Shown in pieces: positions 4,549 to 36,748 of a stretch of DNA of 54,786 nt. A program made the position numbers and the translations under genes. The DNA is taken from NCBI GenBank assembly GCA_027624175.1, contig JAQBXT010000009.1, forward strand, positions 1-54,786, in the 5' to 3' direction. This DNA is from Pseudomonadota bacterium (GTDB lineage Bacteria; Pseudomonadota; Gammaproteobacteria; Burkholderiales; SG8-39). Numbering within the stretch: the first letter of the stretch is position 1; every line of letters starts with the position of its first letter. The notes below the pieces were generated by a model. That model saw only the letters and a list, made by a program, of their open reading frames with translations, made no database searches and had not been told where the DNA came from.

Positions 4549-5204
4549 ATGGTCCCGCGCACAGCACTTCTCGTTGGCGCCACGGGACTCATCGGGTCCT
4601 TTTGTTGCAGCGGCTGCTGGAATCAACGCGGTACTCGCGCGTGGTTGTATGGGCGCGTCGCGATATCGGCAAGGCGCACCCGAAGCTCGAGGTGGAGGTG
4701 GTGGATTTCGAACGGCTGGGCGATCGGCAGGTCGACGCCGAGGACGTGTACTGCTGCCTTGGCACCACGATCAAGGTGGCGGGATCGCAGGAAGCGTTCC
4801 GCCGCGTGGACCACGACTACCCGGTGGCGCTGGCTCGTGCCGCGGCGAAAGGAGGCGCCAAGCGCTTCCTCGTGGTCTCGGCCCTCGGCGCTGACCCGCG
4901 CGCAAAGGTGTTCTACAGCCGCGCCAAAGGCGAGATGGAGGCTGCGGTTCGTGCCGCGGGCGTGCGCGGGACGTACATCTTCCGGCCGTCGCTCTTGTCC
5001 GGTCCGCGCACAGAGAAACGGCTCGGGGAGAAAGTGGGATTGGTGGTCGGCGCCGTACTGGGCCCGCTGCTGGGGAAATACCGACCGATCCATGCCGACC
5101 TGGTCGCCGCAGCGATGATCACAGTAGCGGCGCAGAGCCCGGCGTCAGCCGCATTCGATTCGCATGAGATCAGGATGGCTGGCGGGCCGGCGCCTGTCCT
5201 CTGA
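4549..5204 (+). pseudogene. NAD(P)-binding oxidoreductase, NmrA/HTATIP2-like, one frameshift
   Basis: The first 18 codons read MVPRTALLVGATGLIGSF, a Rossmann-fold GxxGxxG start. The frame is then lost, and the expected continuation LLQRLLESTRYSRVVVWAR is found in another frame from 4602 to 5204. Adding one T to the TTTT run at 4600-4603 would restore a single ~219-residue protein. Further typical features are VYCCLGTTIK, the FLVVSALGAD strand and YSRAKGEME, which supplies the catalytic-type Tyr/Lys. The substrate cannot be told. The defect is either a homopolymer error or a recent inactivation. The 3' end overlaps the convergent EamA transporter gene by 35 bp. Confidence 0.72.
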
Positions 5205-6099
5205 GAAAGATATTGTTCGCCACCAGCGCCCCGATCACTGCCGCCGCCCCCACCAGCTCGACTGCCTCGTAGCTGCGCCCCAGCCAGGCCTCGATCGCGA
5301 ATACGATCACCGGGAGGAGGTTCAGCATCAGCATCGTGTTCAGCGCGCCGAGGTACTTCACGCCGTTATTGAATCCAAGCACGCCGAGCACTACGGTAAA
5401 AACAATGAAGTAGGCGACTTGCCATTTCACCGACCACACCGCCTCGAACGTCGGCAGTTCCGAGTACCCCAGCCCGATTGCCGCGGCATTGATCGCCACC
5501 AAGCCAATCGCCCCGGGGATCGCCGTGAGCACGGTCATGCGCAGGGGCGACCAGCCGGAGAAATGCCAGCCCGCCATGGTGTAGATCACCCAGCTCACCG
5601 CGCCGAGGAACACGAGCAAATCGCCAAGCAGCGATCCGCCCGCGAACACTCCGGTAAAGCTGCCCTTGGTCACCACCAGCAGCACGCCACCGATCGCCAC
5701 TGCGACGCAGGCAATGGTGAACGGCTGTGGACGTTTGCCTTGTGTGAGCCATACCGCGAGCGCCGTCATCGGCGCTTGCAGCGCCATGATGATCGCGGCG
5801 TGCTCGGGCCGTGTGAAGGAAAGACCCCACCAAACCAGCAGATTGAAGCCGCAGAAGCCGATCATCCCGAACACCGCGGCCGGCGCGAAGCGCCCGCCGT
5901 AGCGCAGCGCCTGCCGGCCCTCGACTGCCCAGAGGATGGCGATGAAGATCAGCACGCCGAAGGCGTAGCGCACCGAACCGAGGAAAAACGCGTCCAGCAC
6001 CGGCAGCGTGCGCTTCGCCACCGAAAACATCGCGCCCCAGGAAGCGATGGCGATACCGAGCCAGGCGAGGCCCTTGAAGAGTTCCGTGCGTGGCGTCAT
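5170..6099 (-). CDS. EamA/DMT-superfamily membrane transporter
   Basis: The 309-residue protein has ten predicted hydrophobic helices arranged as two EamA repeats (about residues 10-145 and 160-300). Landmarks are IASWGAMFSVAKRTLP in the first repeat and GVKYLGALNTMLMLNLLPV in the second. Such proteins export metabolites across the inner membrane; the substrate is unknown. The ATG at 6099 lies only 3 nt beyond the end of a 56-bp perfect palindrome, so no free Shine-Dalgarno is visible: AGGT occurs inside the hairpin arm about 14 nt upstream. The gene follows fadD on the same strand and converges on the frameshifted oxidoreductase gene. Confidence 0.88.
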   Translation of the reverse strand: MTPRTELFKGLAWLGIAIASWGAMFSVAKRTLPVLDAFFLGSVRYAFGVLIFIAILWAVEGRQALRYGGRFAPAAVFGMIGFCGFNLLVWWGLSFTRPEHAAIIMALQAPMTALAVWLTQGKRPQPFTIACVAVAIGGVLLVVTKGSFTGVFAGGSLLGDLLVFLGAVSWVIYTMAGWHFSGWSPLRMTVLTAIPGAIGLVAINAAAIGLGYSELPTFEAVWSVKWQVAYFIVFTVVLGVLGFNNGVKYLGALNTMLMLNLLPVIVFAIEAWLGRSYEAVELVGAAAVIGALVANNIFLRGQAPARQPS

Positions 6100-6102
6100 T
6101 GC

Positions 6103-6158
6103 AAATGGGGACAGACCTCATTTTTCTCATTTGAGAAAAATGAGGTCTGTCCCCATTT
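6103..6158. repeat. perfect 27-bp inverted repeat, copy 1
   Basis: The arms 6103-6129 and 6132-6158 are exact reverse complements separated by 2 bases (TT). The core reads GGGGACAGACCTCATTTTTC. A second copy is at 18888-18937. Relative to the downstream gene (here the minus-strand EamA gene) both copies have the same orientation and both end 3 nt before the ATG. The sequence resembles short palindromic REP-like repeats. It is followed at 6152-6177 by a 13-bp tandem duplication. Confidence 0.95.
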
Positions 6159-6177
6159 ATGCCACCCATTTATGCCA
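6152..6177. repeat. tandem 13-bp direct repeat beside the palindrome
   Basis: CCCATTTATGCCA occurs twice without a gap (6152-6164 and 6165-6177). The first unit overlaps the outer end of the palindrome arm, and the second ends 2 bp before the fadD stop codon. It looks like a slippage product or an insertion footprint of the palindromic element. Confidence 0.9.
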
Positions 6178-6178
6178 T

Positions 6179-7852
6179 TTATATCTTACGCGGTTTTTTC
6201 TCGTCGCGCAGGGCGCGGCGCAGGATCTTGCCGACGTTGGTCTTGGGCAGCTCGGTGCGGAACTCGACGTGCTTCGGCCGTTTGTAGCCGGTCAACTGCG
6301 CCTTGCAATGCTCGAGGACGTCGTTTTCAGTGAGCGCCGGGTCCTTTTTCACGATGAACAGCTTCGGCACCTCACCCGAATGCTCATCGGGCACGCCGAT
6401 GGCCGCCACCTCAAGCACCCCCGGGTGCATCGCCACCACCTGCTCGATCTCGTTCGGGTACACGTTGAAGCCCGACACCAGGATCATGTCCTTCTTGCGA
6501 TCCACGATGCGCACGAACCCCTTGTCGTCCATGATGCCGACGTCGCCGGTGTAGAGAAAGCCGTCGGGCCCGATGACCGTTGCCGTTTCGTCCGGGCGCT
6601 GCCAGTAGCCCTTCATCACCTGCGGGCCCCGAATGCAGATCTCGCCCGGCTCGCCGAGTTTCACATCCTGCTTGTTGTCGTCGCGGATCGCGATCTCGGT
6701 CGAGGGCACCGGCAGCCCGATCGAGCCGCTGTAGCTGGCGAGGTCGATCGGGTTCATGGTCGCCACTGGACTGGTCTCGGTCAGCCCGTAGCCCTCCAGC
6801 AGGGTGCTGCCGGTCATCTGCTTCCACTTGTCGGCGACGGCCTTTTGCACCGCCATGCCGCCGCCGCCGGTGAGCTTCAGCGAAGAGAAATCGAGCTTGG
6901 CGAACTCGGAATTGTTGAGCAGCGCGTTGAACAAAGTGTTCACGCCGGTGATCATGTTGTAGCGGTGCTTGCCGAGCTCCTTGACGAAGCCGGGAATGTC
7001 GCGCGGGTTGGTGATCAGGATGTTGCAGCCGCCCCCTTGCATCATCAGCAGGCAATTCACCGTCAGCGAGAAGATGTGATAGAGCGGCAGCGCCGTGACG
7101 ATCATGCCGGGCTCGCCCTTCAGTGCGGAAAGCAGCCATCCGTCCATCTGCTCGATATTGGCAAGGATGTTGCGGTGGAGCAGCATTGCGCCCTTGGACA
7201 CGCCGGTGGTGCCGCCGGTGTACTGCAGGAAGGCGATGTCCTCGTGTCCGACCTCGACCGGTTTCATCTCCTTGCCGGCGGCCTCGGCGAGCAGGGCGTT
7301 GAAGCGGATCGCTGCGGGCAGCTCGAAGGCCGGAACCATCTTCTTCACGTTGCGCACCACGAAGTTGACGATCAGGCCCTTCACGCCGAGCAGGTCACCC
7401 AGCGAAGCCACCACCACGTGCTTCACGAGCGTGCGCGGCAGCACTTCCTCGAGCGTGGTCGCGAAGTTCTCCAGGATCACGATTACTTCGGCGCCGGAGT
7501 CCTTCAGCTGGTGCTCCAGTTCCCTGGGGGTATACAGCGGGTTGACGTTCACCACGATTCCGCCCGCGCGCAAAGTGCCGTAGAGCGCGACCGGATACTG
7601 CAGGCAGTTGGGCATCATGATCGCCACCCGCGCGCCCTTGCCATAGCCTTTCGATTGCAGCCAGGCGCCGAAAGCGCGCGTCATCCGGTCGAGATCACCG
7701 AAGCTGATGGTCTTGCCCATGCTGTGGAACGCCGGGCGGTCGCGGAACTCCACGACTTTCTTATCGACCAGGTCGCCCACCGATTTGTACTGCAGCTTGC
7801 CGACTTCGGCGGGCACGCCTGCGGGATAGCTCTTCAGCCAGATGCGTTCCAT
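6179..7852 (-). CDS. fadD: long-chain fatty acid-CoA ligase
   Basis: The 557-residue AMP-forming acyl-CoA synthetase activates fatty acids to acyl-CoA at the inner membrane for beta-oxidation. The ANL-superfamily motifs appear in order: P-loop-like [12 protein letters not shown] near residue 213, [10 protein letters not shown], the TGD motif (YTGDVG), [10 protein letters not shown], and the C-terminal catalytic lysine in [10 protein letters not shown]. The length matches proteobacterial FadD. The ATG at 7852 is preceded by a strong GGAGGAGG Shine-Dalgarno. An enoyl-CoA hydratase gene lies upstream on the same strand across a 171-bp gap, which suggests a fatty-acid degradation group. Confidence 0.94.
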
Positions 7853-8023: not shown

Positions 8024-8800
8024 TCAGCGATGCTTGAACGTCGGTTTCCTCTTCTCCACGAACGCGGCCATTCCTTCCTTCTGGTCTTCCAGCGCGAATT
8101 GCGAGTGGAACACGCGCCGCTCGAACAGCACGCCCTCCGCCAGGCTGGTCTCGTAGGCGCGATTGATGGACTCCTTGATCATCATCACCACCGGCAGCGA
8201 GTAGCCGGCGATCTTCTCCGCCATCGCCAGCGCTTGTTCCATCAGCGTATCCACCGGTACCACGCGTGACACCAGTCCCGCGCGCAGCGCCTCCTGCGCA
8301 TCGAGCATGCGCGCGGTGAGGCACAGGTCCATGGCGATCGCCTTGCTGGTGAAGCGCGGCAGCCGCTGCGTGCCGCCGGAGCCCGGCATGATGCCCAGGT
8401 TGATCTCGGGCTGGCCGAACTTCGCGTTCTCCGCGGCAATGGCGAGATCGCACATCATCGTCAGTTCGCAGCCGCCGCCCAGCGCGTAGCCCGCCACCGC
8501 AGCGATCACGGGCTTCCTGATCTTGCGCAGGTGCTCCCAGTCGCGCGTAATGTAGTCGGACTTGTAGGCGTCCATGTAGCTGTAGTCCTTCATGGCGGCA
8601 ATGTCGGCGCCCGCGGCGAAGGCCTTGTCGTTGCCGGTGATCAGGATGCAGCCCACGCCCTCGTCCGCGTCGAATGCGTACAGCGCCGCGGCCATTTCCT
8701 GCATCACCTTGGCATTCAGCGCGTTCATCTGCTTGGGGCGGTTGAGCGTGATCAGGCCGACGCGGCCCTTTTTCTCGCTGAGGATGAATTCGTAGGTCAT
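8024..8800 (-). CDS. enoyl-CoA hydratase (crotonase family)
   Basis: The 258-residue crotonase-fold enzyme probably hydrates trans-2-enoyl-CoA in beta-oxidation. The oxyanion-hole segments are AFAAGADIAAM near residue 60 and AGYALGGGCEL near residue 105. The glutamate pair of true hydratases is present in CEL and in the GQPEINLGIMPGSGGTQRL segment near 130-147. The C-terminus AFVEKRKPTFKHR is typical of PaaF/EchA-type hydratases. The gene lies upstream of fadD and diverges from paaG, whose product belongs to the same fold but carries an isomerase-type active site. Confidence 0.93.
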   Translation of the reverse strand: MTYEFILSEKKGRVGLITLNRPKQMNALNAKVMQEMAAALYAFDADEGVGCILITGNDKAFAAGADIAAMKDYSYMDAYKSDYITRDWEHLRKIRKPVIAAVAGYALGGGCELTMMCDLAIAAENAKFGQPEINLGIMPGSGGTQRLPRFTSKAIAMDLCLTARMLDAQEALRAGLVSRVVPVDTLMEQALAMAEKIAGYSLPVVMMIKESINRAYETSLAEGVLFERRVFHSQFALEDQKEGMAAFVEKRKPTFKHR

Positions 8801-17220: not shown

Positions 17221-18033
17221 ATGGAAAACGTCATCGCCAAGGCGCGCAGCTACCTCGACATGCACAGAGGAGAGCGCATCTCCCTCACGCAGCTGGCGCG
17301 CGCGGTAGGCGCCAGCCCCTTTCACCTGCAACGGCGGTTCAAGGAGTCCCTCGGGCTGTCGCCCGGCGACTACCAGCGCGAGGCGCAGCTCGAGGATGCC
17401 AAGCGCCACCTGAAGAACGGCGGCCGCGTCACGGACGCGCTGTTCGAGGCCGGCTACGGTTCGGTGTCGCGCTTCTACGAGAAAGCGGCCGCGCGCCTGG
17501 GCATGCCGGCGCGCGCGTACCGCAACCGCGGCAAGGGAACGCGGATCTTGTACGCCACGTTCGCCTCGCCGCTAGGCGCGGTCCTGATCGCCGGCACCGA
17601 GCGCGGCCTGTGTTCGGTCAAGCTGGGCGACGGCGCGAAGAAGCTCCTGTCGGAGGAATTCCCCGAGGCTGAAGTCGTGGCGGACGCAAAAGCCCTGGCG
17701 CCGATCAGGAGCGCGATTCTGGAATTCATGCACGGCGACGCCTCCCTCGCGAAGATTCCCCTCGACATCCGCGGCACGGTGTTTCAGAGGAGGGTCTGGG
17801 ATCAGCTGCGCCGCATCCCCGCGGGCGAGACGCGCAGCTACGGGCAGATCGCGCGCGCCATTGGCGCACCGCGCGCGGTGCGTGCGGTGGGCAGCGCCTG
17901 CGGCGCCAATCCCGTGGCGCTGGTCATCCCCTGCCACCGTGCCCTGCGCGCCGACGGCACGCTCGGCGGCTATGCTTGGGGCCTCGCGAAGAAGAAGAAG
18001 CTCCTGGAGATCGAGAAACGCGCGCGTAAATGA
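17221..18033 (+). CDS. AraC-HTH / O6-alkylguanine-DNA alkyltransferase (Ada-type without N-Ada)
   Basis: In this 270-residue protein residues ~5-100 are an AraC-type double HTH (LTQLARAVGASPFHLQRRFK, then LFEAGYGSVSRFYEKA). Residues ~108-265 are a methylated-DNA-[protein]-cysteine methyltransferase with acceptor C238 in IPCHR and the RAVGSACGANP segment. It removes alkyl groups from O6-guanine in a suicide reaction. The zinc-binding phosphotriester domain that switches Ada on is absent, so the usual Ada induction circuit cannot operate unless another protein supplies it. The stop overlaps the start of the EamA gene (ATGA). Confidence 0.92.
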   Translation: MENVIAKARSYLDMHRGERISLTQLARAVGASPFHLQRRFKESLGLSPGDYQREAQLEDAKRHLKNGGRVTDALFEAGYGSVSRFYEKAAARLGMPARAYRNRGKGTRILYATFASPLGAVLIAGTERGLCSVKLGDGAKKLLSEEFPEAEVVADAKALAPIRSAILEFMHGDASLAKIPLDIRGTVFQRRVWDQLRRIPAGETRSYGQIARAIGAPRAVRAVGSACGANPVALVIPCHRALRADGTLGGYAWGLAKKKKLLEIEKRARK

Positions 18034-18884
18034 AGGCGGCCGACTACGGCCGCCTGGTCGCGCTGGCCGCGCTCTGGGGCGCGGCATTCATCTTCATGCG
18101 CGTCGCCGCGCCGGTGCTGGGGCCGGTGTGGACGCCGGAATTCCGCGTCCTGATCGGCGGGCTCGCGCTGCTGGCCTGGTTTCGCATCGTCGGTTTCGAT
18201 CCCGGCCTGCGCACGCATTGGCGCTTCTACCTGCTGATCGGCACGGTGAACATCGCCGTGCCCTTCGTGCTTTACTCCTTTGCGGCGATGCACGCGCCGG
18301 CGTCGTTGCTGTCCATCACCAATGCCACTTCGCCGATCTTCGGCCTGGCGTGGGCGGCGGCCTTCGGCGACGAGCGCGTCACGCTGCGCAAGGCGGCCGG
18401 CCTTGGCCTGGGCATCGCGGGCGTGGCGCTCATCGCCCAACCCCCTGGCGTCGCATCAGAGCCGCTGTTCGGCTGGGCGGTGGCGGCTGCGCTCGGTGCC
18501 TGCTGCGCCTACGGGCTCGCCGGCCCGCTCATCAAGCGCTACAGGGGCGACACCTCGCCGCGCGGCATGGCCGTCGGCAATCAGCTTGCCGCCGCCGTAG
18601 TACTGATTCCGTTTCTTCCTTTTGCCCCGCCGCTCGCCGCGCCTTCGGCGCTGGTGATCGCCAACGTCCTCGCGCTCGCGCTGCTGGCGAGCGGCGTGGC
18701 GTTCCTGCTCTACTTCCGGTTGATCGCCGATGTCGGTGCGACGCGCGCACTTACCGTGACCTACCTGATCCCGCTGTTCGGCATCTTCTGGGGCTGGCTG
18801 TTTCTCGGCGAGGCGCTCCCGGCCAGCGCGCTCGCCGGCGGAGTTTTGATCCTCGGCGGGACGGTGCTGGTCACCCGCAGCTAG
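18030..18884 (+). CDS. EamA/DMT-superfamily membrane transporter
   Basis: The 284-residue protein has ten hydrophobic segments in two EamA repeats. Diagnostic stretches are LAALWGAAFIFMRVAAP at the start, SITNATSPIFGLAWAA, and the C-terminal TYLIPLFGIFWGWLFLGE, which is the proline/glycine-rich helix 9 signature. It probably exports a small metabolite; the substrate is unknown. It is translationally coupled to the alkyltransferase gene by a 4-nt overlap. A perfect palindrome follows its stop codon within 3 bp and precedes fadH. Confidence 0.9.
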   Translation: MKAADYGRLVALAALWGAAFIFMRVAAPVLGPVWTPEFRVLIGGLALLAWFRIVGFDPGLRTHWRFYLLIGTVNIAVPFVLYSFAAMHAPASLLSITNATSPIFGLAWAAAFGDERVTLRKAAGLGLGIAGVALIAQPPGVASEPLFGWAVAAALGACCAYGLAGPLIKRYRGDTSPRGMAVGNQLAAAVVLIPFLPFAPPLAAPSALVIANVLALALLASGVAFLLYFRLIADVGATRALTVTYLIPLFGIFWGWLFLGEALPASALAGGVLILGGTVLVTRS

Positions 18885-18887
18885 AAT

Positions 18888-20941
<2,054 letters not shown>

Positions 20942-30935: not shown

Positions 30936-32629
30936 AGATCGCGCGCCAGGCCTATGCGGAGATGTTCGGCCCGACCACGGGTGATCGCCTGCGCCTCGCC
31001 GACACGGAATTGTGGATCCAGGTGGAGAAGGATTTCACCGTTTACGGCGAGGAGGTGAAGTTCGGCGGCGGCAAGGTGATCCGCGACGGGATGGGCCAGA
31101 GCCAGGGCCTGTCCAAGGACGTCGCCGACACCGTGATCACCAACGCGCTGATCATCGATCACTGGGGCATCGTCAAGGCCGACATCGGCCTGAAGGACGG
31201 CCGCATCTGGAAGATCGGCAAGGCCGGCAACCCCGATATCCAGCCCGCGATCACCATCCCGATCGGCGCCGGCACCGAGATCATCGCGGGCGAAGGCAAG
31301 ATCGTCACTGCCGGCGGCATCGACTCGCACATCCATTTCATCTGTCCGCAGCAGATCGAAGAAGCGATGATGAGCGGCGTCACCACCATGCTGGGCGGCG
31401 GCACCGGTCCGGCGACCGGAACCTACGCCACCACCTGCACGCCGGGGCCCTGGCACCTGTTTTCCATGCTCTCGGCGGCGGAAGCTTTCCCGATGAACCT
31501 GGGTTTCCTTGGCAAGGGCAATGCCTCGCTGCCCGGGCCTTTGCGGGAACAGGTGAAGGCGGGGGCCATCGGCCTGAAGCTGCACGAGGATTGGGGCACC
31601 ACGCCCGCCGCGATCGACAACTGCCTCGACATCGCCGACCAGATGGACGTGCAGGTGGCGATCCACACCGACACGCTGAACGAATCGGGTTTCGTCGAGA
31701 CTTCGGTGAAGGCGATGAAGGGCCGCGCCATCGCCACCTTCCACACCGAGGGGGCGGGCGGCGGACACGCGCCGGACATCATCCGCATCTGCGGCGAGCC
31801 GAACGTGCTGCCGTCTTCGACCAACCCGACCATGCCCTACACGGTGAACACCGTCGCCGAGCACCTCGACATGCTGATGGTGTGCCACCACCTCGATCCG
31901 GCCATCGCCGAAGACGTGGCCTTCGCCGAGTCGCGCATCCGCAAGGAAACCATCGCCGCCGAGGACATCCTGCACGACCTGGGTGCTTTTTCGATGATGT
32001 CCTCCGACTCGCAGGCCATGGGCCGCGTGGGCGAGGTGATCATCCGCACCTGGCAGGCGGCGCACAAGATGAAGATCCAGCGCGGCGCGCTGAAGGGCGA
32101 CCCCAAGACGCACGACAACGCGCGCGTGAAGCGCTTCATCGCCAAGTACACGATCAACCCGGCTATCACGCATGGCATATCGCACCTCGTCGGCTCGATC
32201 GAGGAAGGCAAGCTCGCCGACCTCGTGCTGTGGAAGCCCGCCTTCTTCGGCGTGAAGCCCTCGCTGATCCTCAAAGGCGGCATGATCGCCGCCGCCGCGA
32301 TGGGCGATCCCAACGCCTCGATCCCGACGCCGCAGCCGGTGCACTACCGGCCGATGTTCGGCGCCTTCGGCAAGGCGCTGCGCACTTCGGTCAGCTTCGT
32401 GTCGCAGGCCTCGTTGAAGAACCCGGCGCTGCTGCGGCTCGGGCTGCAGCGGCCGCTGGAAGCAGTGAAGAATACGCGGAGCATCGGCAAGAAGGACATG
32501 GTGCACAATTCGTGGCTGCCGAAAATCCAGGTGGACCCCGAGACCTATGAAGTGCGCGCCGACGGCGAGCTGCTGGTGTGCGAACCGGCCAAGGTGCTGC
32601 CTATGGCGCAAAGGTATTTTCTTTTCTGA
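30932..32629 (+). CDS. ureC: urease alpha (catalytic) subunit
   Basis: This 565-residue amidohydrolase hydrolyses urea to ammonia and carbamate using two nickel ions. The metal ligands are visible: H133 and H135 in SHIHF, the carbamylated K216 in GLKLHEDWG, the histidines of [13 protein letters not shown] and [14 protein letters not shown], the active-site flap MVCHHLDP, and the aspartate of [12 protein letters not shown]. The length is standard. ATG 30932 overlaps the ureB stop. The stop overlaps the ureE ATG by one base (TGATG). Confidence 0.98.
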
Positions 32630-36672: not shown

Positions 36673-36748
36673 TGGTGCCGGCTGACGGAGTCGAACCGCC
36701 GACCAACGGTTTACAAAACCGCTGCTCTACCAACTGAGCTAAGCCGGC
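36673..36748 (-). tRNA. tRNA-Thr (anticodon TGT)
   Basis: On the minus strand the gene runs from GCCGGCT at 36748 to the encoded CCA at 36675-36673 (76 nt). The acceptor stem GCCGGCT/AGCCGGC, the D-loop AGTTGGTAGA, the T-arm GGTTCGACTCC and the anticodon loop TTTGTAA with TGT all fit. TGT reads ACA threonine codons. The 3' end faces the integrase module, and the gene itself is intact. Confidence 0.96.

Follow-up and report, generated by a model that had tools for sequence, protein, structure and literature searches.

Palindromic repeats at gene ends in a genus of uncultured betaproteobacteria: probable terminal-repeat dimers of a RAYT-like transposase

Described repeat systems and the present family

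The transposases of IS200/IS605 and RAYT systems recognise folded single-stranded arms and move such units. In Rickettsia, palindromic elements occur as palindromes inserted in frame inside protein genes. The hairpin family identified here, in a genus of uncultured betaproteobacteria, is tied to a transposase; it resembles the Rickettsia elements in that 14 of 96 copies (census rows) lie inside open reading frames, and differs from them in that most copies lie outside genes and a related transposase gene could be identified.

TIRtrons consist of TIRYT genes and dispersed families of their terminal inverted repeats (TIRs), some of which contain GGGGWSAS (Di Nocera 2013, PMC3733652). As far as the available part of that description goes, the likeness extends to a RAYT-like Y1 gene lying between TIRs with GGGGWSAS, a motif which GGGGACAG fits, to the dispersal of TIRs as single, dimeric or grouped copies, and to gene-flanking TIRs unrelated to GTAG, here in three of three sister genomes. 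Unlike the TIRtrons of that account, the present ones belong to a new genus and sequence family, and the transposase was not found at its place in the genome under study; beside the same account, stop-codon edges and empty sites are set out here in detail. The portion of a 2018 survey which deals with TIRYTs assigns 20 of 26 to TnpAREP subclass 2.1 (RAYT group 1), a match that it calls probable, and a C-terminal HTH domain is stated for those so assigned.

GTAG REPs (PMC3733652; Nunvar 2010, PMC2817692) are, in the parts of these papers that treat them, likewise transposase-flanking and situated mostly between convergent or tandem genes. The present elements lack their GT(A/G)G head, the edge being AAAT(G/A)GGG, and no GTAG or GTGG ending was present among the 25 commonest edge 5-mers. 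With REPINs (Bertels and Rainey 2011, PMC3116915), as partly outlined there, they share the inverted doublet as a hairpin unit, and the compensatory changes of the REPIN spacer recall the paired change found here; REPINs are doublets of REPs, whereas the arms here are TIRs and the commonest form is abutted, without a spacer. Since the TIRtron features looked for were found and the GTAG head of REPs is absent, the family is filed, from its sequence, with the TIRtrons as putative dimeric TIR repeats of a RAYT-like transposase.

The two window palindromes

The window, that is the whole stretch of 54,786 nucleotides analysed, is contig 18 of the source genome (G000), a 2.33-Mb assembly of 115 contigs that is 88.7% complete. 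It was compared with three sister genomes of the same genus (G001, G002 and G003) and with G006, which represents another genus of the same family. Two palindromic elements, neither assigned to a strand, were located at 6103–6158 (copy 1; a putative TIR dimer with a 48-nt core and AAAT/ATTT edges) and 18885–18940 (copy 2; likewise with a 48-nt core). Copy 1 is a perfect inverted repeat with 27-bp arms and a 2-nt centre. In copy 2, nucleotides 18888–18937 are perfect (24-bp arms, 2-nt centre), and 18885–18940 pairs at 26 of 27 positions (96%). A window-wide scan (arms of at least 15, loop of at most 20) returned these as the sole perfect inverted repeats, the longest arm in five order-1 Markov sequences of window length being at most 11 bp. 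RNA folding z-scores for the two hairpins were -8.9 and -9.5.

Copy 1 sits in a 79-nt gap between the upstream long-chain fatty-acid-CoA ligase gene (6179–7852, minus strand; NF005463, above its cut-off) and an EamA-family transporter gene (5170–6099, minus strand; PF00892). Copy 2 lies in a 59-nt gap between another EamA-family transporter gene (18030–18884, plus strand; PF00892), whose TAG stop abuts the element, and a gene for a FadH/old-yellow-enzyme-like oxidoreductase (18944–20941, plus strand; PF00724 and PF07992), for the product of which the best NCBIfam model scores below its cut-off. Both copies show the terminal order CCCCATTT, 3 nt (GCA in copy 1, ACC in copy 2) and ATG, the start codons being at 6099 on the minus strand (EamA) and at 18944 on the plus strand (FadH-like). 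These start codons look native: by eye, the first membrane segment of the EamA protein seems to begin no more than about 10 residues in, and the first 15 residues of the FadH-like protein are, we presume, close to the FadH N-terminus.

The placement of both palindromes 3 nt before these ATG codons, as reported in a first-pass annotation of the window, was confirmed, and the near-identity of the two copies was borne out at 91% across 57 nt. The compensatory base-pair change described there is real, arm position 17 (counted from the G of GGGGACAG) being T in copy 1 and A in copy 2 with both arms matched. It had also been remarked that no free Shine-Dalgarno sequence remains; in agreement with this, AGGT is located in the stem of both copies, and none of AGGA, GGAG, GAGG or AAGG is present at -16 to -5 of either start. 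The common direction of the copies relative to the downstream gene is weak evidence, since a palindrome reveals its orientation through nothing but the 2-nt centre and the bases at its edges.

The edge of copy 1 is present as two tandem 13-nt copies (CCCATTTATGCCA) at 6152–6177, without strand assignment, the first of which extends 3 nt into the arm. The site of copy 1 is occupied also in G003, where both flanks match, and in G001, where one flank matches and the contig ends; that of copy 2 is occupied in G002 with both flanks matching. At these shared sites the core length differs in each relative.

Neither copy reached the threshold of any Rfam family, and a search of solved structures by sequence gave no match. 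Sub-threshold miRNA matches on copy 2 were set aside as expected of any long hairpin. Two terminator-like matches in the 400 bases around copy 1, where 0.5 would be expected, are not persuasive, since one of them consists of an arm of that copy, the inner half of which serves as the tail. Elsewhere in the window, Rfam matched 5_ureB_sRNA (109 bits) at 31079–31364 on the minus strand, where the plus strand carries a long ORF, and a tRNA at 36676–36748, also on the minus strand.

Copy family, transposase gene and position relative to genes

A 16-nt arm pattern with up to two mismatches gave 63 matches in G000 and none with the reversed control. Across the four genomes, 105 raw rows were reduced to 96 by dropping single-arm rows that overlapped a pair or a long row, leaving 35 loci in G000, 15 in G001, 21 in G002 and 25 in G003; these include 73 pairs and 17 single arms. 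One row classed as long, G000 C1:9991–10846, probably combines two independent half elements. For arms with GGGGACAGTCC, the count covers the retrieved loci alone. The distribution of the family is narrow: a 15-nt arm form was found in 9 of 81 genomes (all four of this genus, G000 among them, four from elsewhere in the family and one from another family). A 19-nt form was present in 3 genomes, G000 being one of the three, in a draw of 399 from the order that is without G001–G003. Eight viral contigs of IMG/VR carry a single arm each, with no second arm (up to two mismatches) within the stretch examined. Among the literature matches listed for two 10-mers of the arm, none was on bacterial repeats by its title.

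The link to a transposase, a check proposed in the first-pass annotation, is supported. In all three sister genomes a Y1/HUH transposase gene of about 210 codons lies between family arms about 695 nt apart, which are alike over 27 nt, from G/A as far as CATTTG, with one to three differences; in G006 the Y1 gene is also arm-flanked, the arms being alike over a shorter stretch. Two of the sister proteins matched PF01797 (Y1_Tnp) at 36.8 and 36.5 bits (cut-off 23), and HVH is visible in the sequence. With NF047646 (REP-associated transposase) they scored 65.4 and 65.3 bits, below the cut-off of 80. A scan of the transposases against Pfam at E 0.001 revealed Y1_Tnp alone. The commonest palindrome, of 54 nt (25 of 73 pairs), equals one arm of the gene and its reversed copy, abutted; 18 of these 25 are within three substitutions of such a construct and three are exact. 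The window copies are 48-nt versions of this TIR dimer.

By Pfam search, Y1_Tnp was present in 49 of 81 genomes and absent from G000. The Y1 gene adjoins hppD and hmgA (Pfam-named) in G001 and G003, and lies at the corresponding position in G002, in which no match to the hppD stretch was obtained. In contig C2 of G000 (L256), the sequences that bound this block in the sisters stand at 8540 and 8573, some 30 nt from each other, with the transposase gene, hppD and hmgA all missing. A protein search of G000 detected one divergent Y1 homologue on C85 (L250, 1501–1893), missed by the Pfam search, which has counterparts in the other three genomes (L252, L253 and L254); no family arms were seen near these in the stretches examined, so that G000 itself offers no direct link between arms and a transposase gene. 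Because the cognate transposase is absent from its usual place, the G000 copies are probably orphans or relics, unless the gene is encoded in the portion of the genome that the assembly does not cover.

The two arms of an element change in step. They agree at position 12 in 68 of 73 pairs (37.9 expected) and at position 19 in all 73 (46.5 expected), and are nearly independent at position 1 (46 of 73; 37.1 expected). At five of seven sites compared between G000 and G003, position 12 differs in both arms, T in G000 and C in G003, which suggests a concerted change. The list of shared sites includes some at which only one flank abuts the element.

Genes were called with our own codon-usage ORF caller, so that single distances may be wrong, and the distance counts cover sides that face a called gene at up to 300 nt, with the 14 rows inside ORFs and six long rows set aside. 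Insertion at ribosome-binding sites, proposed from the two window copies, does not hold as a rule; the genome-wide landmark is the stop codon, which falls within -2 to +5 nt of the arm on 30 of 40 stop-facing sides in G000 and on 69 of 93 in the four genomes, orthologous sites being entered separately in all four-genome counts. It lies at exactly +2 on 15 sides (31 in the four genomes), as TAA in TAAAT|GGGG, and at -2 on six (24 in the four genomes), as TAG in AAAT|AGGG. Stop codons at elements are TAA in 17 cases, TAG in 10 and TGA in 6, against 16, 38 and 92 elsewhere in the same loci (p 1e-6 for TAA). Base 1 of the arm is A on 26 of 26 TAG-frame sides, which follows from how that frame is defined; of the other 149 sides, 36 have A there.

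Among 29 copies in G000, 15 have a gene end on both sides, 12 are flanked by tandem genes and two by starts; the figures for 74 copies in the four genomes are 27, 43 and four. When the distance to the start codon was tabulated genome-wide, the exact 3-nt spacing recurred on only 3 of 14 start-facing sides in G000, two being the window copies and the third preceding TTG, and on 7 of 47 in the four genomes; a start lies 2–17 nt from the arm on 29 of these 47. Start codons are not a shared landmark, and copies lie mainly at gene ends, where they often form the stop codon. Placement is non-random, as the first-pass reading had supposed, but its regularity concerns stops and not starts. Closeness to stops partly reflects a compact genome, since convergent genes are closely spaced even without an element (median gap 8, n 12); the median for element-free tandem genes is 26 (n 59). 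The short spacing to starts fits insertion into very short intergenic gaps. For some elements the stop is 12 to more than 100 nt away, and AAAT edges are missing from one insertion (G003 C132).

In four of five comparisons of filled and empty sites the gene stops at the same codon. At C1:4376 the stop is TAA in G000, which has the element, and TAG in G002 and G003. At L135 2705 it is TAA in G002, TAG in G003 without the element and TGA in G000, which has half an element; at L135 1889, TAA beside a single arm in G002 and TAG in G003. At L214 1030 all three genomes have TAG, with possible remnants in G000 and G002. In the fifth comparison, the right-hand gene at C1:8412 is, by eye, about three codons shorter than in G003. 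Two more sites do not bear on the stop question, the element at L224 2270 being within the gene end without AAAT edges and the stop at L205 2516 being 13 nt away. Gene length is usually kept because the element edge rebuilds the stop.

Tandem duplications of the element edge, of 9–14 nt and ending 1–3 nt inside the arm, were present on 7 of 174 sides, including that at 6152–6177; the corresponding rates were 0.2% at random positions and 0.01% in shuffled flanks. This count kept the long rows and so has 26 sides at -2, against 24 in the distance census. Flank identity among 72 pairs gave no element boundary, being near the base-composition expectation at every position tested.

Origin of the palindromes

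What has to be explained is a family of copies whose arms are those of a transposase gene, which sit at gene ends and change both arms together. The window palindromes are very probably non-autonomous TIR dimers of a RAYT-like Y1/HUH transposase, that is, of a TIRtron, without the gene. The left and right TIRs would have been joined directly with the gene left out, and the transposase would have recognised the folded single-stranded arm and moved the dimers. An edge giving TAA (TAAAT|GGGG) or TAG (AAAT|AGGG) would let the neighbouring gene keep a stop, and the 3-nt distance to the window starts would follow from insertion in very short gaps between genes. Arm pairing may be kept by template-directed correction, conversion between copies or selection.

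More tentatively, the element may home on stop codons, inserting at the T of a stop so that its edge (AAAT, or AAATAG where base 1 is A) rebuilds a stop on either side, although we think this rather doubtful; from sequence, stop placement fits targeting as well as selection. Homing would allow entry where gene ends abut or overlap, with hardly any cost, as a miniature transposon adapted to compact genomes, and stop-rebuilding, if true, would explain the spread of such elements where intergenic space is almost nil. The four related genomes, with their shared and empty sites, form a natural test system for insertion of RAYT-like repeats and for gene-end placement.

Hairpins of this kind are easily misread as regulatory switches. 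A translational switch, with a hairpin next to the start codon governing how translation of the following gene begins, or, in a variant, joining the upstream stop to the downstream start for coupled re-initiation, would account for the strong folding and 3-nt spacing at both window genes; it would also fit the result that 27 of 29 genes starting 2–17 nt from an element have no Shine-Dalgarno 4-mer at the usual distance. The remaining window genes, however, also seldom have such a 4-mer, which the test located in 8 of 33 (p 0.09), and as a general rule the shared switch of the first-pass annotation fails on the 15 of 29 G000 copies between two gene 3' ends and on the rarity of the exact spacing; it also sits poorly with the variable core length between species at the same sites and the lack of an Rfam family at threshold. 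We regard it as very unlikely. In the case of the two window genes the hairpins may affect translation, though this would not be general, and the hairpin of copy 2 could join the upstream stop to the downstream start. That the elements are instead bidirectional terminators or mRNA stabilisers, kept by selection between convergent genes, is very unlikely: 27 of 74 copies lie between two stops and pairing is kept through changes in both arms, but 43 are between tandem genes and four between starts, 14 rows are inside ORFs, no T run follows the full stem of either window copy, and the arms shared with the transposase gene would be left unexplained. A secondary 3'-end effect may nevertheless exist.

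The covarying arms, the edge duplications on 7 of 174 sides and a loop that looks flipped at a shared site (L039/L134 against L208) are what would be expected of palindromes made in place by replication template switching, with transposition not involved. The same arm sequence is found, however, at unrelated sites in several species and also flanking the Y1 gene, and this origin is highly improbable; template switching may still maintain arm pairing. The loop in question is reversed in G002 (L208 2478) relative to G000 (L039 4038) and G001 (L134 2451).

In the penicillin amidase gene, G002 and G003 carry a family palindrome in frame directly before SNNW (L198, about 2280; L226, about 1598), the serine of which we take to be the autocleavage serine; the gene of G000 (PF01804) has a different palindrome at that place (L031 6600–6700, contig C1). 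A 222-nt variant, in which family arms enclose a second inner palindrome (CTCCG...CGGAG), occupies the same site in G000 (L031 4376–4597) and G001 (L123 2670–2891), and a piece related to it lies elsewhere on the same contig (L031 10688–10853).
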